Notes under the pieces: model-generated
Database searches by the model: none
What the model saw: only the letters and a program-made list of their open reading frames with translations
What the model was told of the DNA's origin: nothing
Program-made: the position numbers and the translations under genes
Assembly: GCA_013619035.1 (NCBI GenBank)
Contig: JABXKX010000108.1
Location: forward strand, 1-20,336
DNA from: Peptostreptococcaceae bacterium
GTDB lineage: Bacteria; Bacillota_A; Clostridia; Peptostreptococcales; Acidaminobacteraceae
DNA: 20,336 nt
Direction of reading: 5' to 3'
Shown: in pieces, positions 1,265 through 20,336 of the stretch
Position numbering within the stretch: the first letter of the stretch is position 1
How the letters are laid out: every line of letters starts with the position of its first letter

Positions 1265-1283
1265 CAAATCCTCCTTTTATTTG

Positions 1284-3856: not shown

Positions 3857-3857
3857 A

Positions 3858-4673: not shown

Positions 4674-4686
4674 AAGTTTTCCTCTT

Positions 4687-6105: not shown

Positions 6106-6106
6106 T

Positions 6107-6478
6107 TTAAATCTCCTTATTTTCCTGTTTTATTGTTCTTGTTGCAATCACATCAACACCGGTATTACCAATATTTTTAGCAACAATATCACCTCTATGA
6201 ACGGGACTTTTTACAGTCACCTTATACAGCAGTTCTGCCAGTTCAATCAACCTGTTTTTTGGTACTTCATCCACACTGATGACGGGTAAACGTTTCACTG
6301 AACTGCCTGTAATTTTTACGGTTGTTGTTAACATCCGTTTTGGATTTCTAAATTCATTTTCGCCAAATATCAAACCTCGTTTACATTGATTCTCACTGAC
6401 GGTTAAATGACCCTCTTGATCTTCAACAACTAAATTACAGCTGACAGGACACACAATACATGTAAATTCTTTTTTCAT
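6107..6478 (-). CDS. DUF1667 Fe-S protein, partner of GlpA-like dehydrogenase
   Basis: The 123-residue protein begins with Cys7-x2-Cys10-x3-Cys14 and has a fourth Cys at 32 in QCKRG, a layout like the [4Fe-4S] site at the N-terminus of molybdopterin oxidoreductases. This is the DUF1667 family, which in clostridia and Thermotogales is found next to the FAD dehydrogenase and pyridine-nucleotide oxidoreductase of glycerol-3-phosphate oxidation. Its ATG overlaps the stop of the upstream gene by four bases (ATGA), and the AGPS-like gene begins one base after its stop, so all three are translationally coupled. It probably carries electrons between the two flavoproteins. No membrane segment is seen. 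Confidence 0.85.
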   Translation of the reverse strand: MKKEFTCIVCPVSCNLVVEDQEGHLTVSENQCKRGLIFGENEFRNPKRMLTTTVKITGSSVKRLPVISVDEVPKNRLIELAELLYKVTVKSPVHRGDIVAKNIGNTGVDVIATRTIKQENKEI

Positions 6479-7743
6479 AACGTGCCTCCCATAACATTAA
6501 CAATGATGTTCCCACCTGCGTCTATAACAGACTGACTGTCAATTTCTTCGACTAGCATTTCAGGTGCTAATACCACACGATGTTTTTTCTGATAACATAT
6601 TGTTTCTGCGACTTTTGCAACCACTTTTACATTTTCCTGTTTCTGTCTCACTCTAAAGTAAAGTGGTAACTTCGCTTCTAGATTGTCTTTTCTAATACGT
6701 TGAGGTACAACAAACGATACATTTTCACCAGGCATCACCTCTGTATAATCTTGTTCTAAGTCTAAAGTACCTTGTATGTATTTAGCAGCACCTCGTCCAG
6801 CTATTTCACCTGTGAGTGATACATAATCTACTAAATCGAATACGGTCACCACATTTCCAGCGGCGAAAATACCAGCCATCGATGTCATAAAGTTTTCATC
6901 CACTTTCGGTCCATTGGTTTTAGGATCAATTTCAATATCGAGTTGTCTTGTTAATTCGTTTTCAGGAATTAAGCCAACCGCTAAAACAAGTAAATCACAT
7001 TCAATGTATCGCTCTGTACCTTTTATCACTTGACGTTTGTCATCTACTTCAGCAACGGTTACACCTTTTAACTTATGCTGACCATGGATACGAATTACCG
7101 TTGTTGATAAATGTAGAGGTATATCATAATCCACCAAACACTGAGCAATATTTCTTGTTAAGCCACCTGGTGAACTCATCAATTCATAAACACCTTCAAC
7201 AGAGATCCCTTCTAAGGTCATACGTCTTGCCATGATCAAACCTATATCACCAGAACCTAATATAACGGCTTTTTTGCCTGGTAAATATCCTTCGATGTTG
7301 ATGTATCGTTGTATGGTGCCAGCGGTTAATACGCCACTTGGTCTTGTCCCCCATATAAATGCTTGTGGTCTTGTCCGTTCGCGACATCCCATGGCTAGAA
7401 TAATTGTTTTTGCATTGTACTCTACGATACCTTCATTTGAGTTCATGGCGTAAACCACTTTATCTTTGGTAATCTCTAGTACAATAGTTTCATATGCTAC
7501 TTCAATGGTTTCATTTTCTACTTCTACAATAAAGTTATCCGCATATTCACAACCAGATAATCTTTTTCCGAATCTATGTAATCCAAAGCCATCATGGATA
7601 CATTGTTGTAAAATACCTCCTAGTGTATTGTCACGTTCGATAATGACAACCTTTTCAATCCCTTGTTTCTTAGCTTCAATCGCTGCTGCTAGTCCTGCTG
7701 GACCGCCACCAATAACTACTAAGTCCATTTGCCTTTTTTTCAC
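6475..7743 (-). CDS. NAD(P)/FAD-dependent oxidoreductase (GlpB-position flavoprotein)
   Basis: A 422-residue two-dinucleotide-binding flavoprotein. The FAD Rossmann motif is GGGPAG (12-17) and the NAD(P) motif is GSGDIG (about 163-168); between them LGGILQQCIHDGFG and GCRERTRPQ are typical of the subgroup that travels with GlpA-like proteins and DUF1667. FAAGNVVTVFDLVDYVSL near residue 295 is the second FAD contact. A GTG at 7749 opens the frame but lies two bases after AAAGGGG; the GTG at 7743, with 8 bases of spacing, is the better start, and an ATG at 7728 is also possible. The likely role is to move electrons from the dehydrogenase encoded just upstream to NAD or to the Fe-S partner. It is not a thioredoxin reductase: no CxxC pair sits in the NAD domain. 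Confidence 0.87.
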   Translation of the reverse strand: MKKRQMDLVVIGGGPAGLAAAIEAKKQGIEKVVIIERDNTLGGILQQCIHDGFGLHRFGKRLSGCEYADNFIVEVENETIEVAYETIVLEITKDKVVYAMNSNEGIVEYNAKTIILAMGCRERTRPQAFIWGTRPSGVLTAGTIQRYINIEGYLPGKKAVILGSGDIGLIMARRMTLEGISVEGVYELMSSPGGLTRNIAQCLVDYDIPLHLSTTVIRIHGQHKLKGVTVAEVDDKRQVIKGTERYIECDLLVLAVGLIPENELTRQLDIEIDPKTNGPKVDENFMTSMAGIFAAGNVVTVFDLVDYVSLTGEIAGRGAAKYIQGTLDLEQDYTEVMPGENVSFVVPQRIRKDNLEAKLPLYFRVRQKQENVKVVAKVAETICYQKKHRVVLAPEMLVEEIDSQSVIDAGGNIIVNVMGGTL

Positions 7744-7761
7744 AACCACATCCCCTTTTCT

Positions 7762-9513
7762 TTAACGACTTTGTTTGTGTAATATATAAGAATCAGATCC
7801 TTTTAAAGTGATTTCCGTTAAAGGTTTATCCAGTTCTCTAGCAACAATTTCAAGTACTTTCGGTCCACAGAAGCCACCCTGACAACGCCCCATACCCGCT
7901 CGAGTTCGTCGTTTTATACCATCAACAGTTGTTCCTGGAAGCGGTGCGTGAATCGCATCTAGGATTTCACCTTCAGTGATTAACTCACATCTGCAAACAA
8001 TATTGCCGTACTTAGGATTTTTTTTGATCCATTCATCCTGCTCTTCATGACTCAAATCTCTAAATTTAACGGCTGGTTCTCTCGTCTTTTTATAGTCTGT
8101 TTTTTTAGAAATGGTTTTATCCATCTTTAAGAGTATATTTTCAACCCTTTCAGCAATAGCAGGTGCTGATGCCAGTCCAGGAGACTGAATCCCTGCCACA
8201 TGTACAAATCCTTTTACAGTTTCGGAAGCTTCAATAATAAAATCTTCTTTGTAGTCTGCCGCTCTGATACCCGAGAAGAATGTGATGATTTCATTTTTCT
8301 TGATTTCATCTGTAACGCCACTTCCCAGATTTAAAATGTAATCTAGATCTGCAGCTTCTACTGATTTATCTTCTTTAAAAGGTGTTTCAGTAGCCGTAGG
8401 ACCCCATAACATATTGCCTTCTGGTGTTAAACTAGCGCCACCACCTTTTGTATTATTGGTTCTATCTGTATTGGCAATCACACCACAAGGTGTACTGATA
8501 AATCCTTTTCTGCTTTTATCAAAGATGGCAATGGCACCACGCCTTGGATGAATGGTATAAAACTTATCATCTACCATCTCTGCAATGGCATCTGCATACA
8601 CCCCAGCACAGTTAATCACATAAGAACATTTGATGGTTGAGTGATTTGTAATAACTTCTGTAACTTGATTATCTTTTTTATTAATATCCAATACTTTTGT
8701 ATCTAGTTTAAACTTAACACCGTTTTCTATGGCATTTTCTGCAAAGGCCATACAAACTTCATGAGGTTCAACAATACCCATGGTCGTCATCCATATACCA
8801 CCAATTGGATGACCTTTTAAGTTCGGCTCTAGTTTATTCACAGCTTCTTCATTTAGCCATTTTATTCCTGGTACTTTCATCATTTGTCTTAGCGGTCTTA
8901 TCAGATGACCTATACCTGTTTTTTTAATAACTTTTAAAAGTTTTGCTATAGTCCATTCTTTTTTTCGATAAAATACAATCAAAGATCCTGGTCTTTTTAA
9001 TTCAAAATTCAGATCTTTAGACAACTGCGTATACATTTTATTGCCTTTTAAATTGAGTTTGGCTTTTAAGCTCCCTGGTTTGGCTAAGGTACCAGGATGA
9101 ATGTTACCATTATTTGCTTTAGTCGCTTCTTCAGAAATATCGCTGTTCTTTTCTAAAACAACAATATTCAAGTCATATTGACTCAGCGCCCTGGCCACAG
9201 AACACCCTGATATGCCTCCACCAATAATAACAACATCACAAGATTCAACCACGCCGTTATTTTTAACACGATTGATTTCATCACTAAAGTCTACTTTTTC
9301 TAAGTTAAATTCTTTTGAAGTAATATCATTTACAACATTTCTAACACCTTTTACTTTTGCTGCTGCATGTCCAATTTCTACAACATCTTTCCAGTAATCA
9401 ACAACACCATTTAAAGTCACAATTTTTCTATCAGAAACATCAATATCGATATTGTAATGGGCTATAGATTCTTTTTGTCTAATTGCTTTTTGCACACGAT
9501 CTCTCATGATCAT
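7762..9513 (-). CDS. FAD-dependent polyol-phosphate dehydrogenase, GlpA-like, with BON and BFD [2Fe-2S] domains
   Basis: Three parts are visible in about 583 residues. Residues 3-66 fit a BON domain (IDIDVSDRKIVTLNGVV, then AAKVKGVRNVVNDI). Residues about 92-470 are a DAO/GlpA FAD domain with GGGISG at 98-103 and NGNIHPGTLAKPG after it. The tail is a BFD-type [2Fe-2S] domain with Cys507-x-Cys509 and Cys544-x4-Cys549 in RTRAGMGRCQGGFCGP. This is the anaerobic glycerol-3-phosphate dehydrogenase architecture plus an N-terminal BON module. The frame opens with a GTG at 9522 that abuts AGGAA; the ATG at 9513 (9 bases away) is preferred, and an ATG at 9507 cannot be excluded. It overlaps or abuts the kinase stop, so kinase and dehydrogenase are coupled. 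The substrate is likely a polyol phosphate made by that kinase; glycerol 3-phosphate is possible but unproved. Confidence 0.87.
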   Translation of the reverse strand: MIMRDRVQKAIRQKESIAHYNIDIDVSDRKIVTLNGVVDYWKDVVEIGHAAAKVKGVRNVVNDITSKEFNLEKVDFSDEINRVKNNGVVESCDVVIIGGGISGCSVARALSQYDLNIVVLEKNSDISEEATKANNGNIHPGTLAKPGSLKAKLNLKGNKMYTQLSKDLNFELKRPGSLIVFYRKKEWTIAKLLKVIKKTGIGHLIRPLRQMMKVPGIKWLNEEAVNKLEPNLKGHPIGGIWMTTMGIVEPHEVCMAFAENAIENGVKFKLDTKVLDINKKDNQVTEVITNHSTIKCSYVINCAGVYADAIAEMVDDKFYTIHPRRGAIAIFDKSRKGFISTPCGVIANTDRTNNTKGGGASLTPEGNMLWGPTATETPFKEDKSVEAADLDYILNLGSGVTDEIKKNEIITFFSGIRAADYKEDFIIEASETVKGFVHVAGIQSPGLASAPAIAERVENILLKMDKTISKKTDYKKTREPAVKFRDLSHEEQDEWIKKNPKYGNIVCRCELITEGEILDAIHAPLPGTTVDGIKRRTRAGMGRCQGGFCGPKVLEIVARELDKPLTEITLKGSDSYILHKQSR

Positions 9514-9518
9514 CCCAC

Positions 9519-11066
9519 TCACTTCCTAATTTTTAGTTCTATCATTTTCTTATAAACAGGTTGTAATCTTTTATAGGTCAACTTGTAAACCTGCTGATAG
9601 AGTTTCTCATATTGCTTAGCAGCTTCTGCTTCTGGTTCGTAGGTTTTTGTAATTCGGACCATTTGGGATACTGCTTCTTCAACTGTTTTATATTTATTTA
9701 AGTAAACATAACTTAAGACGGCTGCTCCAAGTGCAGAGGTCTCATGTGATTGAACCACATATACTGTTTTGTTAAATAGATTGGCTAGTAATTGACATAA
9801 TATATCACTTTGAGCACCTCCACCTGACAGACCAATTTTTTCAATCGTATCAGATGTTTTCAGTTCAATGCTTTTGATACCTTCTTTAATGGAATAACCT
9901 AATCCTTCTACCAAAGCCCTATAAAAATGTATTCTAGTATGTTTATCATTTAATCCTATCAAAGTGCCTGAAGCACCAGGATGTCTTACATCACTCATCC
10001 AATAGGGTTGCATCAACAGCCCATCGGATCCAGGTGGTACTTTATCTAATTTTTCATTTAACAATCTTTCAATACTGATATTGGAATCCGAAGATTCATT
10101 TTTTTCAAGTTCTGCAAATTCATCAATGAACCAACTCACCAACCAAAACCCTCTGGTTATTCCAAGTTCTGGATTAAATTTTCCTTTCATGGCTGCAGGA
10201 TAAACTGTGCCATAAGGATAAAGAGGTAAATAACTATCGGTTGTGGTTTGAACCGTTACCATAGATGCCAGAGAAACACTTACCGTTGAGGTATCAAAAC
10301 ATCCTACCCCTAATGTTTCACAAGCTTTATCTGATCCGGCTGCAATAACTGGAATCCCAACAGGTAAGTTGAACTGTGCTGCACAGGCTTCAGTTAATTT
10401 TCCTATTTCTTCACCAGGATTGACCAATTCAAATAAATGTTCTTTCTTCACATAGAATATACGCCCTTCAATATCAGTTCTCTTTGCCCAATCCAATCGT
10501 TTCCCTGAAAATGGTATATAGCCAGATGCGGAAGTGACACTGTCTCTATAAAGACCTGTCATTTTAAAATTTATGTAAGTCGATAAAAATAGTAATTTAT
10601 GTACTTTTTCCATCAGTTCTGGTTCATGACGGTCCACCCAATGATAAGGACAACTCCTATTATAGTTGTCAACAATATCCCAAACCTTCATCATCTTATA
10701 CGTTTTCTTGAGTGCGCCACTCACTCTGTAATTTTCTTTTATCTTTCTTGTATCCATCCAGCTGATTGCATTTCTAAGAGGTTTTCCTTCTTCATCTACA
10801 AATACACTGGTACTCCTTTGTGATGCCAAGGTCACGGCTACCACTTGTTTCATTACCTCTGGACTTTGCTCCCAAAACTTTTCTACAGCACTCACTGCAC
10901 TGTTCCAAAATATATCTGGGTGCATTTCAATAAAGCCTTCATCTGTCATTTCATACTTTGGATATTTTACCTTTGTTACTCCAAGTAAAGCGCCTTTATT
11001 GTCATAAACAATGGCGCGCATACTTTGTGTGCCACAATCTAGCACAAGAACATATCCAGTTTCCAA
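9519..11066 (-). CDS. FGGY-family carbohydrate/polyol kinase
   Basis: The 515-residue protein has both FGGY domains. Phosphate-1 motif DCGTQSMRAIVYDNKG is at 10-25, the substrate region WMDTRK at 103-108, a candidate catalytic Asp246 in AGSDKACETLG, and the C-terminal signature GLSGGGAQSDILCQLLAN (412-429) with ETSALGAA at 442-449. The family phosphorylates glycerol, xylulose, ribulose, erythritol and others with ATP. The sequence does not show the glycerol-kinase substrate motifs I would expect, and resembles the broader XylB group (COG1070), so no substrate is given. The start is a TTG at 11066 with GGGGG seven bases upstream; no in-frame ATG nearby aligns better. It is the first gene of the operon, about 50 bases from the promoter, and its product presumably feeds the GlpA-like dehydrogenase encoded next. 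Confidence 0.88.
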   Translation of the reverse strand: METGYVLVLDCGTQSMRAIVYDNKGALLGVTKVKYPKYEMTDEGFIEMHPDIFWNSAVSAVEKFWEQSPEVMKQVVAVTLASQRSTSVFVDEEGKPLRNAISWMDTRKIKENYRVSGALKKTYKMMKVWDIVDNYNRSCPYHWVDRHEPELMEKVHKLLFLSTYINFKMTGLYRDSVTSASGYIPFSGKRLDWAKRTDIEGRIFYVKKEHLFELVNPGEEIGKLTEACAAQFNLPVGIPVIAAGSDKACETLGVGCFDTSTVSVSLASMVTVQTTTDSYLPLYPYGTVYPAAMKGKFNPELGITRGFWLVSWFIDEFAELEKNESSDSNISIERLLNEKLDKVPPGSDGLLMQPYWMSDVRHPGASGTLIGLNDKHTRIHFYRALVEGLGYSIKEGIKSIELKTSDTIEKIGLSGGGAQSDILCQLLANLFNKTVYVVQSHETSALGAAVLSYVYLNKYKTVEEAVSQMVRITKTYEPEAEAAKQYEKLYQQVYKLTYKRLQPVYKKMIELKIRK

Positions 11067-11089
11067 AATGTTACCCCCTTTTTTCGCCT

Positions 11090-11097
11090 AGACGTCT
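11090..11097. promoter_or_regulatory. Second AGACGTCT half-operator
   Basis: AGACGTCT recurs here, 16 bases centre to centre from the perfect palindrome at 11103-11116. The flanks do not extend the symmetry. It lies in the leader of the kinase operon before the ribosome site. It may be a lower-affinity site for the same regulator dimer pair. Confidence 0.5.
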
Positions 11098-11102
11098 CCA
11101 CA

Positions 11103-11116
11103 TATAGACGTCTATA
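11103..11116. promoter_or_regulatory. Palindromic operator, probably for the operon's GntR/UTRA regulator
   Basis: TATAGACGTCTATA is a perfect 14-base palindrome starting 6 bases downstream of the -10 box of the kinase operon and covering the expected transcription start. A repressor bound here would block initiation. Its TATAGAC arm resembles the GT-n-TAGAC half site known for HutC-type GntR proteins, and the operon encodes one such protein as its last gene. Confidence 0.65.
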
Positions 11117-11121
11117 CCACT

Positions 11122-11150
11122 ATGTTATCCCTAACTTTTTTACTTGTCAA
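11122..11150 (-). promoter_or_regulatory. Sigma-A promoter of the kinase-flavoprotein operon
   Basis: On the minus strand a consensus -35 TTGACA (11145-11150) is separated by exactly 17 bases from -10 TAACAT (11122-11127). Initiation is expected near 11115, giving a leader of about 50 bases before the TTG start of the kinase. The operator palindrome sits on the start point. Confidence 0.8.
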
Positions 11151-11346
11151 TGAAATACACGTGTTTTTTCGAAAGATTCAGAATTTTCATCGTATTTCTA
11201 AATATTTTGTAATCTTCACTATATTTGTGTACTTTTATGTAATTGTTATACGAAATAAACCGAATTTTCTATCTTCCCTCACTGTTCTGTTGTAATAAAG
11301 TTACAAAGTAAATATTAGCAGTTTATATTTATCAAATGAACTTTTT

Positions 11347-11376
11347 TTGATTCTCCATTCATATACAGGGTATGAT
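11347..11376 (+). promoter_or_regulatory. Possible promoter of the small Cys-rich gene
   Basis: TTGATT (11347-11352) and TATGAT (11371-11376) are 18 bases apart, giving a start close to 11383 and a very short leader before AAGGAGG. An alternative pair, TTGTAA then TATTAG at 17 bases, lies about 50 bases further upstream. The rest of the 334-base gap between the kinase and this gene (11067-11400) holds the oppositely directed kinase promoter and operators, plus an ACACGTGT palindrome at 11157-11164. Nothing else is recognisable there. Confidence 0.45.
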
Positions 11377-11400
11377 TCTATCAAAGATAAGGAGGCTCCT

Positions 11401-11658
11401 GTGAAAGAATGTACTAAATTTAATTCATGTTCATTTCCAAATTGCGACAAATCGTATCATTTACTGACTTCAATTGATCATTTCATTGAAGATTACTGTA
11501 AAGGTGAAAAAAGAGATGATTGTATTCGACTGAAAATCGAAAACCATAATGGGAAAATTCATGTACCCAGTAATATGATGCCAAACGGCTTGCCACTACC
11601 GGGTACCCACAGAAGAGATTGGGATGAAGTTGCCTTAGAATTTAAAAAACATATTTAA
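11401..11658 (+). CDS. Small Cys-rich protein of unknown function
   Basis: An 85-residue protein on the strand opposite to its neighbours. The frame stays open to a TTG at 11347, but AAGGAGG five bases before the GTG at 11401 fixes the start there. Five cysteines lie at 4, 10, 15, 33 and 41, in the pattern C-x5-C-x4-C and then DYCKGEKRDDCIR, followed by VPSNMMPNGLPLPGT. From memory, a similar YC-x-G-...-C-x-R plus Pro-Asn-Gly layout occurs in small proteins and at the ends of some bacterial sensors; the residues suggest a bound metal or Fe-S cluster, but that is inference. It has no signal peptide or membrane helix. It ends at a terminator shared with the BCCT operon. I do not recognise a function, and its position between two operons may be incidental. 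Confidence 0.75.
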   Translation: MKECTKFNSCSFPNCDKSYHLLTSIDHFIEDYCKGEKRDDCIRLKIENHNGKIHVPSNMMPNGLPLPGTHRRDWDEVALEFKKHI

Positions 11659-11660
11659 TA

Positions 11661-11705
11661 AAAAAAAACTGTCATATCGTTATAAACGACATGACAGTTT
11701 TTTAT
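11661..11705. terminator. Bidirectional intrinsic terminator
   Basis: A near-perfect inverted repeat with 21-base arms (11661-11681 and 11685-11705), a 3-base loop and one A/C mismatch carries T-runs on both outer sides. It ends the small plus-strand gene and, reading the other way, the BCCT operon whose last stop is at 11754. A smaller 6-base hairpin (11722-11739) precedes it on the minus strand. Confidence 0.88.
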
Positions 11706-11753
11706 GAATCTCTTTAATGATATATCCTTTAGTGGATATGTTAAGTTTCTATC

Positions 11754-13298
11754 TTAATCCATACCACTTGCCTTTTTTATTGTCATACTTTGCGTATAAA
11801 GATCTTCATCTACCATTTTCTTAAAAGAAACGATTAATAAACACATAATAAGAATAATAGGTAACGCTGTAATAATCGAGACTGTTTGTATGGCATAAAG
11901 CGGACCATCAATTATCAGCAGTGTCATTGGAATAAATCCCAATGCAAAAGCCCAGAAAAGTCTGTTCCATTTGGCTGGTTCCTGTCCCTGATACAATTGT
12001 TTGGTTGTCACTGAAGCAAGAATATACGATACTGAATCAAAAGTTGTTGCTGTGAATACAGTTGCGGCAATTGAAAATCCTAAAATGATTAACTTGCTAA
12101 AGGTTAGGGTTTCTAGAACACTAACAATTGCTACTGGTCCCCCTTTACTGTTTAAAAGGCCAATGACGTCGAGTTCTCCTGTCAACTGTAAATGCAGTCC
12201 TAGATTACCGAACACAACAAATATAATCGCGCATCCCATCGTACCAAAAATCATAGATCCCAATATAACGGTTTTAACTTTCATGCCTCTCGAAATTCTA
12301 GCAATGAATAATCCTATAAGTGGTGACGATATGATCCACCATGCCCAATAGAAAACGGTCCAACTTTCTGTAAATCCCGAATTATTCACGGGATCCATCC
12401 ATGTGCTCATCCTAAAGAAGTTTTGAAGAAGTAAACCAAAACTAGTTGTACCCATTTTTAATATAAATAAAGTTGGTCCAGTGATTAATACGAATAACAA
12501 AATGATAAATATAAGTGCGATATTAATATTGCTCAGTACTTGAATACCTTTTTTAAGTCCAGAATAAGCACTCATTGAGAATAAAGTAATGACCAAGAAA
12601 AGTACACAGAGGTTTAATGACAGATTCATTTCAACACCCATTAAATTACTGACCCCAGCCGAAATCAAAGGAATACCTAATCCCAAACTCGTAGCGGTTG
12701 CACCAACTGCACCAAATATAAAAAGAATATCTATAATTTTACCAATGACTCCATCTACTTTTGAACCCAATAAACATCTAAGAGCTTCACTGATCTTAAA
12801 TACATTGTCCTGTCTTACAAAATAACTATAAGCTATTGGTAACGCAGGCAAAGCATACAATGCCCATCCTATAGGTCCCCAATGAAAAATACCATAAGTG
12901 GCTGCCATTTCAGCGGCTTCCCATGAACCTGGAACCATTCCAAATGGTGGTTTGCTTAAATAATAAGCCCACTCAATTGATCCCCAATACATAACACCCG
13001 AACCGATACCAGCACAGAAAAGCATTGCTGCCCAACTGAATTTATTAAATTCAGGCGCTTCATTATCACGCCCTAAAACGACATTTCCATATTTGCTAAA
13101 AGCAAACCATAACGCTGCAATCAAAGCAAAAATGCCCATCCAAATATTTAGAAAACCAAAATTTGATGTTAAGTACTTATTTATGAGATTAATTAATTGT
13201 GTCGCTTGATCCGGAAAGATGACAATCGGTAGACAGATTAACACAATTACAGTTATCGACATAAAAAATGTAAACCGATCGATTCTTATTTTATTCAT
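11754..13298 (-). CDS. BCCT-family betaine/carnitine transporter, carnitine-subclade features
   Basis: A 514-residue membrane protein with about 12 hydrophobic helices. Family marks are AGIGSGVMYWGSIEWAYYL (96-114) with KPPFG at 116-120, YGIFHWGPIGWALYAL, and SWTVFYWAWW (312-321) followed by LFIARISRG. The WGSIE...PPFG, FHWGP, DP...GF..WTVFYWAWW pattern is close to CaiT and related carnitine/choline carriers, and the tryptophans that box the trimethylammonium group are kept (W313, W320, W321). However, the Arg that replaces a sodium ion in E. coli CaiT (Arg262) aligns with Asn259 here, as in sodium-coupled BetP, so ion-coupled uptake is more likely than CaiT-type exchange. AAAGGGG five bases before the ATG supports the start. 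It is the last gene of the operon and is separated from the small membrane gene by a strong hairpin. Confidence 0.93.
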   Translation of the reverse strand: MNKIRIDRFTFFMSITVIVLICLPIVIFPDQATQLINLINKYLTSNFGFLNIWMGIFALIAALWFAFSKYGNVVLGRDNEAPEFNKFSWAAMLFCAGIGSGVMYWGSIEWAYYLSKPPFGMVPGSWEAAEMAATYGIFHWGPIGWALYALPALPIAYSYFVRQDNVFKISEALRCLLGSKVDGVIGKIIDILFIFGAVGATATSLGLGIPLISAGVSNLMGVEMNLSLNLCVLFLVITLFSMSAYSGLKKGIQVLSNINIALIFIILLFVLITGPTLFILKMGTTSFGLLLQNFFRMSTWMDPVNNSGFTESWTVFYWAWWIISSPLIGLFIARISRGMKVKTVILGSMIFGTMGCAIIFVVFGNLGLHLQLTGELDVIGLLNSKGGPVAIVSVLETLTFSKLIILGFSIAATVFTATTFDSVSYILASVTTKQLYQGQEPAKWNRLFWAFALGFIPMTLLIIDGPLYAIQTVSIITALPIILIMCLLIVSFKKMVDEDLYTQSMTIKKASGMD

Positions 13299-13327
13299 CT
13301 AAACCCCTTTCTATTTATACAACTAAA

Positions 13328-13373
13328 ACACTACAGCATCTGTGTTATTATATAACACAGATGCATGTAGTGT
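13328..13373 (-). other. Long RNA hairpin between the 45-residue gene and the second BCCT gene
   Basis: Arms 13328-13348 and 13352-13373 pair over 21 positions with a 3-base loop and one bulged base (13365). In minus-strand RNA the stem is followed by UUU-A-G, a short U-run. It could be a partial terminator that lowers expression of the second transporter, or a processing or stabilising stem. It lies about 30 bases before the ribosome site of the downstream gene. Confidence 0.7.
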
Positions 13374-13385
13374 CCATTATTCATA

Positions 13386-13523
13386 TTAATCTATTACATC
13401 TAAGGCTAACTTTATATTCCAAACTACAAAAGCTAAAGCGCCGATAATAATAAGTCCTTCAAGAAGACTACTTCCAATACTTTGCGCACCAAATAGTGCT
13501 TGATCTAAACCGTAAGTTTCCAT
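13386..13523 (-). CDS. 45-residue single-pass membrane peptide, candidate BCCT accessory subunit
   Basis: A short frame starts with an ATG at 13523, two bases after the stop of the first BCCT gene, and ends with TAA at 13386. The protein begins METYGLDQALFGAQSIG and then has one hydrophobic stretch of roughly 19 residues (about 19-37, LLEGLIIIGALAFVVWNI), ending KLALDVID. A purine-rich GGAAGGGG lies about 11 bases before the ATG, and translation could also be coupled to the upstream stop. Coupled tiny membrane proteins are known for other secondary carriers: the MetS-type subunits of NSS transporters and small accessory proteins of some SSS symporters. By analogy this may be a subunit of the BCCT carrier encoded before it. 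I do not recognise a named family; coding is supported by spacing, composition and the clean helix only. Confidence 0.7.
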   Translation of the reverse strand: METYGLDQALFGAQSIGSSLLEGLIIIGALAFVVWNIKLALDVID

Positions 13524-13525
13524 TT

Positions 13526-15097
13526 TTAAATCATCCCCTTCCTATGGTCATTCCTAATTTGTCTTAGGAAGCCACTAACTTGCATGATGACAAAGAAGGT
13601 ATAAGGAATACCCATGAAAACAGCGACCGCTTTTACACCACTCAGGGTACCTGTTACAACATTTGCAAATGAAATAGTCACCATAATAACTGACCAGATT
13701 AGCGTTCTAGAAACAGGTGCATTTTCAACACCATTACTAGTCATCATACTTAATGAAATCGCAGCACTAGTTGCACCAGTCGCTAAGAAAACAATAATTA
13801 AAAGAACAAATACCGGACCTGTTATTGCAAATAGTGGTAGAGATTGTAGAACCATGATGAACGATAAGTAAACGTCATTTGGATTTTCAGTAATATATCT
13901 TGCAATTTCTCCAGTGCCAGCAATATCATCTAAAAGTCCATATCCTCCAAAGACACCAAACCATGCAACTAAAAACAGGGTTGGAATCAGTATTGAAGCC
14001 ATAACAAACTCTTTAATTGATCTTCCTTTAGATATTCTAGCAATAAATACACCCATAAACGGCGTCCAAGAAATCCACCAGATGAAAGTTGTTAAAGGCC
14101 AATCATTGAACCAACCTTTTGCTTCAAACATGTAAGTATTGAAACTAATTGGTATCAATTTAGTAAACGTTGTACCTAAAGTCGTTACAATTGATTCCAT
14201 AAAATAACGTGTAGGACCAACACAAAATACAAATATTAATAAAGATATAGCTATAATAACGTTAACATCTCCAAGCACTTTCATACCCTTTTTTACAGGT
14301 AATAATGCTGGTAGTGTATATACTAAGAATAATACAAATAAAATAATAAGTGAGTACGTTAATCCCGTTAAATCAAATCCTGTAATGGCTTCCAAACCAT
14401 TCTTTACTTGGAACACACCCATTCCAATAGATGCAGCCATAGTCAACGCTGCTGCACTTGCTGCTACAACATTAGTTAATCCTGCTACTTTTTTGCTCCA
14501 TTTTTTATCTTTGAAGCCTTCTTCAATTGGTGTTCCAGGAAGGAATCTTGCACCTCTGTGATAAGTAAAGTATGCTATTACCAAACCTGAAATTGCATAA
14601 ATTGTCCATGCAGGTAATCCCCAGTTAAATAGAGATAACGTTAAAGCATTTTTTGCAGCTTCTACTTGAGAATACCCACCAGATACACCAAGTGGTGATT
14701 GAAGATAATGTACCATTGGTTCAGCAACACCGAAGTTTACTAATCCAACACCAATACCTGCGGTAAATAACATTGAAATCCAAGAGAAAGTTGAAAATTC
14801 GGTTTCGGCAAATTTGCCACCTAATTTTATCTTTCCAAACTTACTAAAAGCAAGATACATACATATTAGGAAGAAGGTTATTGGAATCAATATTGTGAAC
14901 CAATTCATATAACCATGGAATTTATAAACCCACCCCCACAAAGTTGTTGTTAAGGATTCCGGATTTATCAATGACCATACTGAAAATATTCCAGTGACCA
15001 TAATCGCTAACCAGAACAGTCGAGAAGACTGTTTAGCAGGTTGCTTGTCATCAACTATTATAGTTTCGACATTTGTTTCTTTTACTGCACTACTCAT
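13526..15097 (-). CDS. BCCT-family betaine/carnitine/choline transporter
   Basis: A 523-residue protein with a short polar N-terminus and about 12 membrane helices. The glycine-rich sodium-site helix reads FTAGIGVGLVNFGVAEPMVHYL (111-132), and the TM8 signature WWISWTPFMGVFIARISKGR is at 340-359, with the conserved Trp residues of the ligand site (W340, W341, W344). PVKKGMKVLGDVNV has Asn279 where CaiT has its sodium-mimicking Arg, which suggests a sodium- or proton-driven symporter. Substrates of the family carry a quaternary ammonium or similar group: glycine betaine, carnitine, choline, dimethylsulfoniopropionate. The ATG follows AAAGGGGAG by 5 bases. It is encoded directly after carnitine acyltransferase, which points to carnitine or acylcarnitines as cargo. 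It is clearly different in sequence from the second BCCT protein, not a recent copy. Confidence 0.93.
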   Translation of the reverse strand: MSSAVKETNVETIIVDDKQPAKQSSRLFWLAIMVTGIFSVWSLINPESLTTTLWGWVYKFHGYMNWFTILIPITFFLICMYLAFSKFGKIKLGGKFAETEFSTFSWISMLFTAGIGVGLVNFGVAEPMVHYLQSPLGVSGGYSQVEAAKNALTLSLFNWGLPAWTIYAISGLVIAYFTYHRGARFLPGTPIEEGFKDKKWSKKVAGLTNVVAASAAALTMAASIGMGVFQVKNGLEAITGFDLTGLTYSLIILFVLFLVYTLPALLPVKKGMKVLGDVNVIIAISLLIFVFCVGPTRYFMESIVTTLGTTFTKLIPISFNTYMFEAKGWFNDWPLTTFIWWISWTPFMGVFIARISKGRSIKEFVMASILIPTLFLVAWFGVFGGYGLLDDIAGTGEIARYITENPNDVYLSFIMVLQSLPLFAITGPVFVLLIIVFLATGATSAAISLSMMTSNGVENAPVSRTLIWSVIMVTISFANVVTGTLSGVKAVAVFMGIPYTFFVIMQVSGFLRQIRNDHRKGMI

Positions 15098-15127
15098 TAT
15101 TACTCCCCTTTCAAGATCTTATATATA

Positions 15128-15147
15128 ATTGATATGCCCATATCAAT
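15128..15147. other. Perfect inverted repeat between acyltransferase and first BCCT gene
   Basis: ATTGATATG and CATATCAAT form 9-base arms around CC. It lies in the 55-base gap, 15 bases after the acyltransferase reading frame ends at 15153 and about 30 bases before the BCCT start. The 2-base loop is too tight for an ideal RNA hairpin, so a DNA operator or a slightly opened stem are both possible. No U-run follows, so it is not a terminator. Confidence 0.6.
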
Positions 15148-15152
15148 ACGCA

Positions 15153-16910
15153 CTATGTATTGTTACCATTCAACGTTCTAGAAATATCACGGAACGCTTC
15201 CCATAGATTATTGATCAATAACTCACTTTTTTCTTGATGTTCAACTCGACATGAAATGGTACATGATATGTTGTTTTTCTTAATACCATAACCAATTCCA
15301 AACCCATCCTTCACAACTGGTCCAAATCCAAAACACCTTATATTTTCAGAACCCAATCCACTAGTTGAAATGAAATCATATTTTAACTTTTGATAAGCTC
15401 CGTCTTTAAAAATATCTACGCCTTCATCATTCTTAAAGTGCAACTCGTACATCTTATTAAGTCCGTAAAGATGACGTTCCACTCCACTACCAGACTGACA
15501 TATTTTTATTCTATCAACATGTGCTTTTACCGCTTCATGTATCAATTTTTTTAGAACATCAGCATCTATACAATCGTCGAACTGCTCAACCAATATTTTT
15601 ACTTTGTCATTAATCGGTCTTGTACAATCAGTTCGTCCTTCTCTATATGAACGCATTGCAACAGGCTCATACGTGCTTTTTAAACAGTTAAAGGTTCTAT
15701 ACTGAGCAAGTTGTAAAGCAATGTGGAAAAATGCGTCAGGGCTTACCCCTAATGTTTTTATATAATCCTTACCAAAGTCATCAAAATTCAAGTACTTAAT
15801 ATCAATAGAATCTGACACAACTTGATGAGCCGCCAACACTTTGTTTAATTCTTTGTTCAAGTTTTTATCTAATTGCCACTCCAAATGGTGGTATTTTGCT
15901 TTTTCTGTCATTATGTTATCAAAGGCATCCTTATTGGTCATAATAAAATCATATATGTTTTCCATTATCGTAAACCAAGTGGTACCATCAGCACCTGTAT
16001 GTTCATTATTAAAGCCAATTTCACAATCTTTTGTTATTACTATTTGACTCGATTTATCAAAATATCTATTTTTCCCATTCGATAACAGCATATTACGACA
16101 CATATTCTCTTGAGAATCCATTTTCTCATCTAAACATATGACAATGACTGCTTCATTTATCATTTCAATATTAGCCTTATTGTTTTCATCGGATAATAAT
16201 TGTTGGTATATATCAGCTGCATGATCTCGATTGGATGTTGTCAAAGCCGAAATATTAATGTCTTGATCTGCCATGTTACTGTTAACAATTTCATCAATAG
16301 TTAAAGCTATAGCATCTAGTGACAACACTTCGCCTTGTTCATCAGTAACAAGAATCTTATACATTTGATTGTTATAAAAGAACATGACATGATTATTTTC
16401 TTTTGTTCTTGCACCAATTCTATATTCATCTTGTTTCTTTCTTGGTATTCTCACCGCTTTAAAAGTATTCTTATATTGATCCATACACAGTGGAATCTTC
16501 TTATTCATTTCTGGAGCCAGTGCATTGTCAATAATCGAAAAATAAAAAGTTACCGATTTAACAATTACCAGTGCAGCCAACTGTGAAGGGGTTAGAGATT
16601 CTTTAAACTTTTCATTCTCAATGATAGAATAATAATTCATATTAAGAACCAATGGCTCTCTATAAGAAAGATACATGTCGTCCCACATAGGTTTTAGCCA
16701 ACTTTTATTATCAGTAAATTCAGATTCTATGAGTCTGTTCTGTAGCTTGCTACCTAACCCTTGTGGTGACAGAAACTCAGCAACGTTATCTTGAGTTGTC
16801 ATAAATTCTTCAGCCGTCACTAGAGGTTTAATCCATTCCAAATACTCATTCATGGTTTCATTTAAATCAGGTATTGGTAATTTGCTTAACTCTTTATTGT
16901 ATCTATACAT
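15153..16910 (-). CDS. Carnitine O-acyltransferase (choline/carnitine acyltransferase family), predicted short-chain
   Basis: A 585-residue member of a family best known from mitochondria and peroxisomes. It reversibly moves acyl groups between CoA and carnitine. Catalytic His304 lies in NEHTGADGTTW; TYEPVAMRSYREGRTD is at 413-428; ERHLYGL has Arg479; the STS motif is 515-517 and FGPVVKDGFG 529-538 follows. Against animal carnitine acetyltransferase, Tyr452, Thr465 and Arg518 (which hold carnitine's carboxylate) align with Tyr414, Thr427 and Arg479, all kept, so carnitine rather than choline is predicted. Met564, which blocks long acyl chains in the acetyl enzyme and is Gly in long-chain enzymes, aligns with Phe527, favouring short acyl chains. 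No signal or membrane segment is seen, so it acts in the cytoplasm. The ribosome site is weak (AGG, 10 bases); the gene follows ptb by 7 bases. Confidence 0.93.
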   Translation of the reverse strand: MYRYNKELSKLPIPDLNETMNEYLEWIKPLVTAEEFMTTQDNVAEFLSPQGLGSKLQNRLIESEFTDNKSWLKPMWDDMYLSYREPLVLNMNYYSIIENEKFKESLTPSQLAALVIVKSVTFYFSIIDNALAPEMNKKIPLCMDQYKNTFKAVRIPRKKQDEYRIGARTKENNHVMFFYNNQMYKILVTDEQGEVLSLDAIALTIDEIVNSNMADQDINISALTTSNRDHAADIYQQLLSDENNKANIEMINEAVIVICLDEKMDSQENMCRNMLLSNGKNRYFDKSSQIVITKDCEIGFNNEHTGADGTTWFTIMENIYDFIMTNKDAFDNIMTEKAKYHHLEWQLDKNLNKELNKVLAAHQVVSDSIDIKYLNFDDFGKDYIKTLGVSPDAFFHIALQLAQYRTFNCLKSTYEPVAMRSYREGRTDCTRPINDKVKILVEQFDDCIDADVLKKLIHEAVKAHVDRIKICQSGSGVERHLYGLNKMYELHFKNDEGVDIFKDGAYQKLKYDFISTSGLGSENIRCFGFGPVVKDGFGIGYGIKKNNISCTISCRVEHQEKSELLINNLWEAFRDISRTLNGNNT

Positions 16911-16917
16911 CTTTCTT

Positions 16918-17838
16918 TTACCTGCTTTCTATCATATTCTGTTCTGCAACCAACATCGCAAAAGCAATTGAATTCAACTTAGTCATTTCTGAATCCGCTC
17001 TAGAAGTCATGATAATAGGTACTTTCGCCCCTAAAATGATACCAGCAGCTTGAGCATCACTGATAAAAGTAAGTGCCTTATATAAAACATTACCGGCCTC
17101 AATGTTAGGCATTAATAAGACATCTGCTTTCCCGGCAACTTTATGATCAATTCCTTTTTGAACTGCTGCTTTTATAGACACGGCATTATCAAGTGCAAAA
17201 GGTCCACCTACAGAGTATGATTTGTCCGTACTATTTAAATGATCATCTTCTATTTGTTTCGCATCTACTGTAGCTTGCATTTTAGGATTCACTTTTTCTT
17301 TCGCACATATCAGTGCGACATTCGGGTGTTTAATGCCAATTGCCTTTGCTGCAAGAACTGAATTGTTTATAATTTTTTTCTTCGATTCTATATCAGGTGA
17401 AATATTGATAGCTGCATCAGAAACGATTAATATCCTATCATAAGTCGATGACGCAATAAGACCAACATGACTCAGCAGATTATCAGTTCTTAAATCAGCC
17501 TCTTTCTTAAGTATGGCTTTAAGAATAACCGATGAGTCAACAAGACCTTTCATCAACATATCCGCTTCCTTTAGTGTCACTTTTTCTACTGCGATTCGAG
17601 AAGCTTCCACATCATCTAATTCATTAATGATACTAAAATCTTTTATATTAAATTTAAGATCCTCACATATATGTCTTATCTTTTTCTCATCTCCAACAAG
17701 TATGCCTTTAACAAGCCCCAGTTCATTGGCTAATTTTAAAGCGCCAAGTACCTCTTCATCTTGAGCGACTGCTACTGAGATTCTTTTTATATCTTTTGAT
17801 ACTGCATAATCTAAAATATCTTTAAAATCTTTTATCAT
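16918..17838 (-). CDS. ptb: Phosphate butyryltransferase
   Basis: The 306-residue protein is close to the family length (about 300) and carries its signatures: VSDAAINISPDIESKKKIINN (about 138-158), CAKEKVNPKMQATVDA, GGPFALDNAVS (about 211-221), the LLMPNIEAGNVLYKAL segment (about 240-255) and AAGIILGAKVPIIMTSRADS. It converts acyl-CoA plus phosphate to acyl-phosphate plus CoA; butyryl, isobutyryl and related short chains are used by characterised members. GAGGAG seven bases before the ATG fixes the start. It follows butyrate kinase with an 18-base gap and precedes carnitine acyltransferase, so in this operon its acyl-CoA may come from acylcarnitine rather than from the butyrate fermentation pathway; no thl, crt or bcd gene is present in the window. 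The order buk-ptb here is the reverse of the usual ptb-buk order. Confidence 0.93.
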   Translation of the reverse strand: MIKDFKDILDYAVSKDIKRISVAVAQDEEVLGALKLANELGLVKGILVGDEKKIRHICEDLKFNIKDFSIINELDDVEASRIAVEKVTLKEADMLMKGLVDSSVILKAILKKEADLRTDNLLSHVGLIASSTYDRILIVSDAAINISPDIESKKKIINNSVLAAKAIGIKHPNVALICAKEKVNPKMQATVDAKQIEDDHLNSTDKSYSVGGPFALDNAVSIKAAVQKGIDHKVAGKADVLLMPNIEAGNVLYKALTFISDAQAAGIILGAKVPIIMTSRADSEMTKLNSIAFAMLVAEQNMIESR

Positions 17839-17856
17839 TTATTTTCTCCTCACTCC

Positions 17857-18927
17857 TTAATAAATCATTGCTTCTTCGGTACCGTTTAATACTCTTAAAC
17901 CACCTTGTACCAGGGCATTTAATTCATCTTCACCTGGAATGACAATAACATCTCCTAAGAAACTCACTCGTCTTTTAATCAGTGAAACAAAGTTTTGTGA
18001 ATAAGCAATACCTCCCGTGATGATAATGCCATCTATATCACCTTCTAATATAGCTGCTGAAGCTCCAATTTCTTTAGAAATCTGATAAGCCATAGCTTCA
18101 TAAACTAATTTAGCTTCCTTATCGCCATCTTTTATAAGTTGCTCTACATCTCTTAAGTCGTTCATGTTCAAGTGACTTACCAGTCCGCCTTTTCCAACCA
18201 ACTGTTTTTTCACTTCTGATTTTGTATATTGTCCAGAAAAACATAAATTAATCAAATCACAGTTAGGGATTGCACCAGCACGTTCAGGAGAAAATGGTCC
18301 ATCGCCATCTAATGCATTATTAACATCAATTACATTGCCTTTTAGATGTGTTCCAACTGAAATGCCCCCACCAATATGTGCAACAATAAAATTGCAATCA
18401 AAATAATCTTTTCCTTTTTGATCTGCAACAATTCTGCCAACTGCCTTTTGATTTAAAGCATGAAACATACTGACACGTTCGATTGATTGAATACCAGTCA
18501 CTTTAGCAATCTCCATCATCTCATCTACACTTGGAGGATCAACAATAAAACCAGGTATTTCAAGTTGATTTCCCAAGTCATATGCAATCATACCCGCTAA
18601 GTTTGATGCATGATTTTTTTGAATTGCACCTTCTTTTAAGTCTAAGAAAAGCTTTTCCTCCAACCTATACGTGCCACCTCTTAAAGGTTTTAAAAATCCT
18701 CCACGTCCGACAATCGCTGTCAATGACTCTAAGGATATGCCTTGTTTATCAACCGCCTCAATTACAGCATTTTTTCTAAATTCATATTGTTCAATTATCG
18801 ACTTGTAATTGGCTAATGTCTCATTTTTATGTCTTAATGATTCTTCAAATAATATATCATTGTCATCGTAAATTGCGATCTTTGTAGAAGTAGAACCCGG
18901 ATTGATAACTAATACTCTATTCTTCAT
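17857..18927 (-). CDS. buk: Butyrate kinase
   Basis: A 356-residue ASKHA-fold acyl kinase. The N-terminal phosphate loop is VLVINPGSTSTKIAIYDD (about 5-22), followed by VGRGGFLKPLRGGTY (73-87), VDPPSVDEM, MFHALNQKAVGR and AHIGGGISVGTH (about 183-194), then IITGGIAYS near the end. It makes ATP and a short-chain acid from acyl-phosphate, or the reverse. An upstream ATG at 18942 opens the frame, but AAGGAGG lies inside those extra codons, five bases before the ATG at 18927, which is therefore the start and matches the usual MK-x-VLVINPG beginning. It is the first gene of the operon. Length and motifs separate it from acetate kinase (about 400 residues). Branched-chain or propionyl phosphates could also be used. 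Confidence 0.94.
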   Translation of the reverse strand: MKNRVLVINPGSTSTKIAIYDDNDILFEESLRHKNETLANYKSIIEQYEFRKNAVIEAVDKQGISLESLTAIVGRGGFLKPLRGGTYRLEEKLFLDLKEGAIQKNHASNLAGMIAYDLGNQLEIPGFIVDPPSVDEMMEIAKVTGIQSIERVSMFHALNQKAVGRIVADQKGKDYFDCNFIVAHIGGGISVGTHLKGNVIDVNNALDGDGPFSPERAGAIPNCDLINLCFSGQYTKSEVKKQLVGKGGLVSHLNMNDLRDVEQLIKDGDKEAKLVYEAMAYQISKEIGASAAILEGDIDGIIITGGIAYSQNFVSLIKRRVSFLGDVIVIPGEDELNALVQGGLRVLNGTEEAMIY

Positions 18928-19059
18928 ATACGCCTCCTTCATTAGATAGATTTAACTTTCCTAATAAGCCTAACATTATTATTAGTGCATCGACGACCGT
19001 TTTTTTGTTTCCGTGTGGATAATTATTAATAGATTCAGATTCTTAAAAATAAAACAACA

Positions 19060-19086
19060 AAAAAAGACCTGCAAACGGTCTTTTTT
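19060..19086. terminator. Bidirectional terminator-like hairpin in the divergent buk/araC gap
   Basis: A-run, GACC, 7-base loop, GGTC and T-run form a stem with U-tracts in both directions. It lies between divergent genes, 12 bases before the -35 of the AraC gene, so it would mainly insulate the two promoters. The remaining gap (18928-19059) must contain the buk promoter; I see AT-rich candidates (TAATAATAATG near 18975-18985) but no convincing -35 partner. Confidence 0.65.
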
Positions 19087-19097
19087 CACACTTTTTA

Positions 19098-19158: not shown

Positions 19159-20336
19159 ATGAACTCAAAATACGAAATTATAGAACATGTTGCCAATCTC
19201 CCTTACTCATGTTACTTATGGGAAAGCACAAAACAACCTTTAAACTGGCATAATGATATCGAACTCATTATGGTACTTAAAGGTACTTTGGATATTGAAG
19301 TACGTGGCGAAAAATATCATCTAAGAAAAGAAGATGTATTTCTAATAAACACCAATCAACTGCATCGTTTATCATCAAATACTGTTGAAAATGTCAATAA
19401 CTCAATAATATTGATTTTCCAATTTGATCCCGATTATTATCAAGCTTACTACCCTAAATTTTCAGATATAATATTTCACTGCAATACAGCACTCATACAG
19501 CGAACTCCTAAAACATACGATACACTTAGGAGATTGTTAGTAAAACTTATGTGGCTTTCACTTAATAAGACTGAAACTTTTCAACTAGAAGGATTACAAA
19601 TTTCGTTGGAGTTGATAGAGTTTCTAATAACCAATTTTGTTAAATCCATTTCAGTCCAAAATACTAGCCAAGATCAGATGCAACAACGTTTGATCCGGAT
19701 TATAGAATACATAAATAAGAACTACAATAAAAAGATAACTTTGCCTCAAGTGGCAAATAACGAATTTATGTCTGCTCATTATTTATCAAGATTTTTCAAA
19801 ACCCATACCGGCATTGGTTTCAACAAATATATTAATCAATTCAGAGTTAACAAGTCTTTAAACGAATTGCTACACACCAGCAAAACTATACTTGAAATTG
19901 CACTAGATCATGGATTTTCCAATTCAAAATCATATGCAAAACACTTTAAAGAACATTACGGAACCAGTCCAAGTGAATTTAGAAAAGAAAGCCATCTCTT
20001 TTTAAAATCAACCCAAGATGATTCATTAAAAAATAGTAAGAAAAGTGAAGCTGCCCTTCTCACCTATGTCGAAAAATACAAGGCTGATGAGAGTTATGGA
20101 TTTGTACCCGTTGATCCCATTACAGTGGACTGCAACATTGATACAGTTGATACCTTTGAATTCGAAAAAATTCTATATTTTGATTTTGTTTATGATGGTC
20201 TAAACTCCAATTGGCAAAACAATCTTATTAAGATTCAAAATGAGGTTAAGTTTGATTATATTAGATTCAATGGCATTTTTAATAAAGGCATGTTTTTTTA
20301 CAGTAAAAAAGAATTATCTTACAACTGGTTCAATAT
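19159..20336 (+). CDS. AraC-family regulator with C-terminal GH39-like domain (partial)
   Basis: The frame is open to the right edge; 392 codons are visible. GGAGG six bases before the ATG sets the start. Residues about 20-90 form an N-terminal cupin (HNDIELIMVLKGTLDIEVRG, then KEDVFLINTNQLHRL). The double helix-turn-helix occupies about 175-277, with LPQVANNEFMSAHYLSRFFK and the AraC signature ALDHGFSNSKSYAKHFKEHYGTSPSEFRK. After a polar linker, the part from about 335 on, ending KFDYIRFNGIFNKGMFFYSK, resembles the start of a GH39 (beta-xylosidase type) domain. This cupin-AraC-GH39 architecture is common in clostridia next to carbohydrate genes, so its target may lie beyond the edge. Divergence from buk makes control of the acylcarnitine-type operon possible but not demonstrated. 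Confidence 0.88.
   Translation, partial: MNSKYEIIEHVANLPYSCYLWESTKQPLNWHNDIELIMVLKGTLDIEVRGEKYHLRKEDVFLINTNQLHRLSSNTVENVNNSIILIFQFDPDYYQAYYPKFSDIIFHCNTALIQRTPKTYDTLRRLLVKLMWLSLNKTETFQLEGLQISLELIEFLITNFVKSISVQNTSQDQMQQRLIRIIEYINKNYNKKITLPQVANNEFMSAHYLSRFFKTHTGIGFNKYINQFRVNKSLNELLHTSKTILEIALDHGFSNSKSYAKHFKEHYGTSPSEFRKESHLFLKSTQDDSLKNSKKSEAALLTYVEKYKADESYGFVPVDPITVDCNIDTVDTFEFEKILYFDFVYDGLNSNWQNNLIKIQNEVKFDYIRFNGIFNKGMFFYSKKELSYNWFN

Follow-up and report, generated by a model that had tools for sequence, protein, structure and literature searches.

This analysis concerns a run of six genes in a stretch of 20,336 nucleotides (nt) from a Peptostreptococcaceae bacterium (assembly GCA_013619035.1, contig JABXKX010000108.1, positions 1–20,336 of the forward strand), which is termed the window below. 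The run encodes, in this order, a butyrate-kinase-type acyl kinase (Buk), a Ptb-type phosphate acyltransferase (Ptb), a carnitine acyltransferase (CrAT), a BCCT carrier (BCCT1), a peptide of 45 amino acids (aa), and a second BCCT carrier (BCCT2). We regard the import of short-chain acylcarnitines with substrate-level phosphorylation as the most likely function of this gene set, at a probability of roughly 55%. The first-pass annotation of this DNA had described the six genes as collinear and closely spaced, and all six reading frames were found on the minus strand in a single tight run, with intergenic gaps of 18 base pairs (bp) between buk and ptb, 7 bp between ptb and CrAT, 55 bp between CrAT and BCCT1, 2 bp between BCCT1 and the peptide, and 87 bp between the peptide and BCCT2. 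The buk start at 18927 given in that annotation fits a database copy of the protein (P0243, 356 aa). The features of the region are as follows.

17857–18942, minus strand: buk, butyrate-kinase-type acyl kinase (TIGR02707 match; second in-frame ATG at 18927)
16918–17838, minus strand: ptb, Ptb-type phosphate acyltransferase of uncertain acyl specificity (PF01515, 150.8 bits)
15153–16910, minus strand: CrAT, carnitine acyltransferase (PF00755, 540 bits)
13526–15097, minus strand: BCCT1 carrier (PF02028, 417.9 bits)
13386–13523, minus strand: 45-aa microprotein with one hydrophobic stretch
11754–13298, minus strand: BCCT2 carrier (PF02028, 503.5 bits)
19159–20334, plus strand: AraC-type regulator gene, divergent from the run and cut by the window end (PF12833)
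11663–11703, minus strand: terminator-like hairpin after BCCT2 (-23.1 kcal/mol, z -7.2)
13336–13376, minus strand: hairpin between the microprotein and BCCT2 (-25.1 kcal/mol, z -7.4), overlapping a promoter-like site, TGGACA-18-TATAAT
19057–19089, minus strand: terminator-like hairpin in the buk/araC intergenic region (z -3.7)

The acyltransferase and its acyl-CoA-disposing partners

The CrAT protein matched the PF00755 profile over residues 11–565. By a HMMER alignment to human/mouse CrAT (1nm8) and an alignment of 29 sequences (the window protein and 28 relatives), the catalytic His was assigned to H304, the carnitine site to Y414, T427, and R479, and the STS motif to S515-T516-S517, while F527 occupies the position of mouse M564. 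The equivalents of H343, Y452, T465, R518, S552, and T553 were kept in all of the 29 sequences, and that of E347 was constantly Asp. With these residues in place, the initial description of the enzyme as a carnitine acyltransferase with intact catalytic residues stands. Y452, T465, and R518 presumably bind the carboxylate of carnitine in animal CrAT, and we take the choline enzymes to differ at these positions; the Tyr, Thr, and Arg of this site in the window CrAT are those of the carnitine type. The AlphaFold model (pLDDT 92.6) resembled animal CrAT structures with TM scores of 0.92–0.94; the structure scores do not separate the window protein from choline acetyltransferase. Altogether, the protein shares with animal CrAT (1nm8, 1ndb) a common fold (predicted here), the catalytic His, the STS motif, and the carnitine-site residues, but differs from it in an identity of only ~27%, in Asp for Glu347 and Phe for Met564, and in being encoded in an operon alongside acyl-phosphate enzymes and carriers.

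By the search patterns used, 67 loci with a CrAT relative were found in public genomes, of which 51 have at least 3 kilobases (kb) on both sides, and a further 25 loci (several of them repeating genomes of the 67) were inspected. In Oceanirhabdus sp. W0125-5 (L001), the genes pta, ackA, and CrAT lie in a row, followed by an AraC-type gene on the other strand and then by BCCT1, a small peptide, and BCCT2. The 2.2-Mb contig of L095, probably of Peptoclostridium acidaminophilum, bears the order BCCT1, microprotein, BCCT2, an oppositely oriented AraC-type gene, buk (56%), and CrAT. The order in L098 is a sodium:solute symporter, an Abhydrolase_3 esterase, an ADP-forming synthetase-like gene, CoA-transferase A and B, and CrAT, the C-terminus of which is cut by a TGA. 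The domains of the synthetase-like protein (CoA-binding, succinyl-CoA-ligase-like, and ATP-grasp) are those of ADP-forming acyl-CoA synthetases, and its name rests on them, as it falls below every equivalog cut-off shown. A synthetase-like hit of 28% was found 5 kb from CrAT in L051. CrAT is followed by a butyryl-CoA:acetate CoA-transferase-like gene (below its cut-off) in L006 and by an acyl-CoA ligase in L007. As a separate observation, CrAT of L025 has a 30% relative of the L098 esterase at a distance of 216 bp on the opposite strand (near 9989–11755).

Three pairings of contigs of equal size were also noted: CrAT P0004 with Buk P0246 (16468), CrAT P0005 with Ptb P0128 and Buk P0247 (8425), and CrAT P0006 with Ptb P0134 (4844). 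When the comparison was confined to the top ten CrATs and the top 15 Ptb rows or top 10 Buk rows, two coincidences in size were seen in each case, against expectations of 0.005 and 0.008. Judged from their sizes, these are probably, though not provenly, three further contigs that carry CrAT plus ptb and/or buk. The first-pass annotation had counted a CrAT never linked to ptb or buk among the results that would speak against its proposal; linkage was found with buk in L095, with pta-ackA in Oceanirhabdus, and in the three cases of equal-sized contigs. Regarding the co-occurrence survey that it had suggested, linkage of CrAT to ATP-type partners does recur (L095, L001, and, with the synthetase-like gene, L098), but in a small minority of the loci: an acyl-phosphate pair lies near CrAT in 1/67 of the first set, and an ATP-type partner in 2/25, L095 and L098, of the second.

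In the Ptb phylogeny (50 rows, picked from 120 listed), the window sequence and the Ptb rows on CrAT-sized contigs fell into one weakly supported group (87/50); the count of CrAT-linked labels is generous here, as P0123 and P0124 were labelled by their near-identity to the window sequence and not by contig evidence. In the Buk phylogeny, one supported clade held the four labelled rows, two of which are the window sequence itself, together with 11 that bear no label; the CrAT-linked label was not clearly clustered (50 of 500 shuffles were as low).

The carriers and the 45-aa microprotein

In 22 of the 67 loci, a BCCT or OpuC-like carrier was detected at a distance of up to ~6 kb from CrAT. Twelve of them have a BCCT gene (L001, L004, L007, L012, L032, L034, L035, L042, L043, L047, L057, and L065) and ten an OpuC-like ABC set (L018, L019, L021, L023, L024, L025, L046, L052, L054, and L064). 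In 5 of the 16 genomes searched, the only BCCT gene found adjoins CrAT (L032, L043, L047, L057, and L065; note that L032 is from a possibly incomplete metagenome bin and that the L065 gene has an internal stop). BCCT1 of the window is 77% identical to the Oceanirhabdus copy and belongs to the carrier type that recurs beside CrAT with the microprotein behind it. With regard to the TIGR00842 cut-off of 407.55, BCCT1 lies below (335.1) and BCCT2 above (463.8).

The 45-aa peptide had been mentioned in the first-pass annotation as a tiny membrane peptide. The single hydrophobic stretch agrees with this description, but the peptide deserved more weight than it was given there. A six-frame scan of loci L001–L119 with the peptide yielded ten segments scoring at least 55, all ten of which lie directly behind a BCCT1-type gene near CrAT. 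On the basis of the small reading frames listed and the six-frame scan, the microprotein follows 13 of 13 BCCT1-type genes (at least 51% identity, the window included, and L034 and L065, which are broken by a stop, also counted) but does not follow any of 12 other distinct BCCT genes, where carrier rows with an alignment ending before BCCT1 residue 440, including the broken L108 carrier, were left out. Substitutions at the three codon positions amounted to 0.47/0.33/0.66 (78 pairs), and purine-rich stretches, possible ribosome sites, precede most of the microprotein starts. Judged from the codon pattern and the conservation behind the same carrier type, the microprotein is coding. Its occurrence behind all BCCT1-type genes and none of the other carriers indicates that it is probably an accessory subunit of BCCT1. 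Among the publication titles listed in a literature search on this point, none describes such a subunit of BCCT carriers.

Among 297 genomes, 16 of which possess CrAT, both of those with a BCCT1-type gene above 900 bits (G1197 and G002) carry CrAT. The carrier that ranks next, with 472 bits (G1028, outside the 16 CrAT genomes), has such a peptide behind it, followed by an esterase 61% identical to that of L098, and four carriers at 364–383 bits have no such peptide behind them. Since an esterase follows a BCCT1 relative and the microprotein in a genome not listed with CrAT, BCCT1 and the microprotein may form a two-gene carrier for an ester cargo, as this arrangement suggests. At L127 7233–9916, in a genome not listed with CrAT, a BCCT1 relative (40%) directly precedes a peptide of 37 aa that has a single hydrophobic stretch, and an Abhydrolase_3 esterase comes next.

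Surroundings of the run and distribution of CrAT

The run ends after BCCT2 at a strong terminator-like hairpin (11703–11663), and the downstream FGGY/GlpO/electron-transfer-flavoprotein (ETF) genes therefore probably belong to a separate unit. This second run on the same strand (window 542–11066) contains genes for an FGGY kinase, an FAD oxidoreductase with an N-terminal BON and a C-terminal BFD-like domain, an NAD/FAD oxidoreductase, DUF1667, two GlcD-type FAD oxidases around EtfB/EtfA, and a GntR regulator. It resembles a system for 2-hydroxyacids or glycerol phosphate and may be electron-bifurcating. An incomplete frame at the window edge (2–442) had no Pfam match up to an E-value of 1e-6. 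Promoter-like sites in the region were not in excess of shuffles (43 vs 45.4), and the hairpin at 19057–19089 matched no Rfam family up to an E-value of 0.1.

In the window and in L001, L004, L012, and L095, CrAT occurs together with an AraC-type gene. Both of the full-length relatives scanned (L001 11874–14120 and L095 5280–7625) carry a C-terminal glycoside-hydrolase-39-like domain, which is odd for a carnitine regulator.

The first-pass annotation regarded bacterial carnitine acyltransferases as uncommon, and the counts bear this out. CrAT was found sporadically. Sampled at class level, it occurred in 2 of 391 genomes for Oceanirhabdus and 10 of 398 for Bacillus chungangensis; at order level, in 3 of 225 for Oceanirhabdus and 16 of 297 for Anaerophilus; and at family level, in 5 of 71 for G1197. 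Each count includes the centre genome, which was chosen for having CrAT, and the samples overlap. Viral contigs yielded no CrAT relative. Another CrAT clade, divergent and 27–29% identical to the window protein, was recognized at L071 6820–13105, L106 7383–12351, L107 7432–12377, L109 7392–12421, and L110 7339–13714, and in pieces at L108 8132–11831. The conserved set comprises a split galactarate-dehydratase-like pair (~112 and 388 aa), CrAT, and a BCCT2-like carrier, to which an enolase-superfamily gene is added in L071 and L110; it is perhaps another carnitine-ester pathway. At L097 8127–11675, two different CrAT genes of one genome face each other, one of them behind an OpuC-like set.

In Enterococcus (L030, L031, L033, L037, L038, L050, and L060), CrAT is fixed behind a relA/dtd-like pair (names by eye), and no carriers were recognized nearby; this placement may reflect another use of the enzyme. 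In L002 (3465–11758), CrAT lies 11 bp behind a shikimate-kinase-like gene, after a run resembling a shikimate/aromatic operon (names by eye), and again no carrier was recognized near it.

Proposed function and alternatives

We propose that the run constitutes an inducible unit for short-chain O-acylcarnitines, with the AraC-type protein as the putative mediator of induction. BCCT1 with the 45-aa microprotein, and/or BCCT2, would import the ester, and CrAT would transfer the acyl group from carnitine to CoA, yielding acyl-CoA and free carnitine. Ptb would then replace CoA by phosphate, and Buk would convert the acyl phosphate to ATP and a short acid. One ATP could thereby be gained per ester bond with no redox step, and the carnitine would exit again or stay as an osmolyte. 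The acyl group is expected to be short because of the Phe at the mouse M564 position in CrAT. The CrAT reaction is close to equilibrium, and fermenters turn acyl-CoA into acid and ATP by modules such as those found beside CrAT; it is from these partners that we infer the direction from acylcarnitine to acid and ATP. This is in essence the acylcarnitine-to-ATP operon of the first-pass annotation, the chain of reactions in which fits the genes and is supported by comparative genomics, but the direction, the acyl chain, the substrate, and the gain of ATP are matters of inference. None of the publication titles listed in literature searches describes this gene set.

Several observations weigh against this interpretation. 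Buk exceeds the curated cut-off of the TIGR02707 butyrate kinase model (504.7 vs 289.1 bits), but Ptb remains under both of the butyryl-specific ones (TIGR02706, 340 vs 410.5; NF004472, 371.7 vs 399) and barely clears the broader phosphate acetyltransferase model NF006045 (288.6 vs 282); of the initial name, phosphate butyryltransferase, the membership in PF01515 was borne out but the TIGR02706 equivalog assignment was not. In L095, no ptb adjoins buk and CrAT, and PTA_PTB genes are found elsewhere in that genome. Over all listed pairs, the coincidences in contig size are not unusual (2 seen vs ~0.4 expected; 32 and 25 of 400 shifts reach 2 or more). In a neighbour search limited to reference proteins, which other families would escape, the 6 kb around CrAT contained no relative of pta, ackA, ptb, buk, the CoA-transferase of L006, or the ligase of L007 in 64 of the 67 loci, the exceptions being L001 with the acyl-phosphate pair and L006 and L007 themselves (one each). 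Genes closely related to those of L098 were likewise absent from these 64 loci. The CrATs that have ATP-type partners do not form one clade: in the CrAT phylogeny (43 rows, several of them on long branches), the ATP-linked rows are spread and need four changes (13 of 500 shuffles were as low), a distribution that fits repeated pairing or repeated loss. The CrAT of Enterococcus resides in an unrelated conserved neighbourhood, and that of Anaerophilus behind shikimate-like genes. The carriers, finally, give little guidance. The nearest solved relative of BCCT2 is DddT (569 bits to 21ff vs 264–271 to CaiT chains), presumably a dimethylsulfoniopropionate carrier, and BCCT1 is nearest to a trimethylamine carrier and a choline carrier. 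Arg262 of CaiT, to which we ascribe a role in Na+-independent carnitine antiport, is replaced by Asn in BCCT1, BCCT2, and all 8 other non-CaiT rows aligned, so that there is no support for a CaiT-type mechanism of carnitine exchange. From these relatives and the lack of Arg262, the carriers alone do not indicate acylcarnitine.

The reverse use of the pathway was already considered in the first-pass annotation. Buk and Ptb would spend ATP to activate a short acid, and CrAT would load it onto imported carnitine, so that acylcarnitine is stored or exported and CoA is freed. Every step is reversible, and the acyl-CoA ligase after CrAT in L007 is an activating enzyme. However, this direction costs ATP, the partners of CrAT in L001, L095, and L098 are typical modules by which fermenters convert acyl-CoA to acid, and no exporter was recognized among the window genes. 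We consider it unlikely. The same mechanism might also serve another cargo, an ester of another hydroxylated betaine, choline, or sulfonium compound, as could be read from the affinities of BCCT2 to DddT among solved structures and of BCCT1 to trimethylamine and choline carriers, from the low identity to animal CrAT (~27%), and from structure scores that do not set the enzyme apart from choline acetyltransferase. The conservation in 29/29 sequences of Y452, T465, and R518, which we take to hold the carnitine carboxylate, makes such a cargo improbable.

OpuC-like carriers, often importers of osmolytes, flank CrAT in 10/67 loci, which would suit a housekeeping role, in which the carriers import carnitine or betaine solutes, CrAT buffers acyl-CoA, and ptb and buk are there by chance. 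Nevertheless, separate genomes repeatedly have a kinase gene or another gene for the disposal of acyl-CoA next to CrAT, ptb is only 7 bp from CrAT, and the AraC-type gene occurs with CrAT in five loci including the window, so that we find this role quite improbable. That the genes are chance neighbours with no shared function, to which the absence of ptb/buk from most CrAT loci might point, is very improbable, given that nearly the same gene set surrounds the CrAT of Oceanirhabdus and that of L095 and that in five genomes the only BCCT gene found adjoins CrAT.

The import of acylcarnitines for ATP synthesis can be compared with known systems. The caiX-cdhCAB-hocS operon of Pseudomonas aeruginosa serves the catabolism of short-chain acylcarnitines by ester hydrolysis and the conversion of carnitine to glycine betaine (PMC5806209). 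The import and use of short-chain acylcarnitines (proposed here) and a divergent regulator gene (cdhR there) are common to the two, but the ester would here pass to CoA and yield ATP. Among the 17 window proteins scanned, there was no alpha/beta-hydrolase or 3-hydroxyacyl-CoA-dehydrogenase-like Pfam family, the kinds to which we assume HocS and CdhA to belong, respectively. The clostridial ptb-buk module, normally fed by butyryl-CoA from fermentation, comprises the same two enzyme families and the same final step as the window, where, in contrast, the genes are physically joined to CrAT and BCCT carriers. The enterobacterial cai operon (E. coli region L072) combines a BCCT carrier with CoA chemistry on carnitine, as proposed here, although in that system carnitine itself is activated to CoA and then reduced. 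No family of the CaiA, CaiB, CaiC, or CaiD kind was found among the 17 window proteins scanned (the ETF genes of the window lie in what is probably a separate downstream unit), and the window further differs in having Asn for CaiT Arg262 in its carriers.

As a tentative generalization, which we hold to be possible rather than probable, some anaerobes may combine the two-gene BCCT carrier and CrAT with interchangeable Ptb/Buk, Pta/Ack, or ADP-forming synthetase modules, using carnitine as a recycled handle, in an undescribed form of substrate-level phosphorylation. If the proposed function is right, acylcarnitines made by animals would be a direct source of ATP for some anaerobes, and the rare carnitine acyltransferases of bacteria would gain a physiological role. 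The exchange of unrelated acyl-CoA-to-ATP modules beside one acyltransferase would then be a case of modular evolution. The microprotein conserved behind one BCCT subtype suggests, in addition, the existence of a small second subunit in some BCCT carriers.

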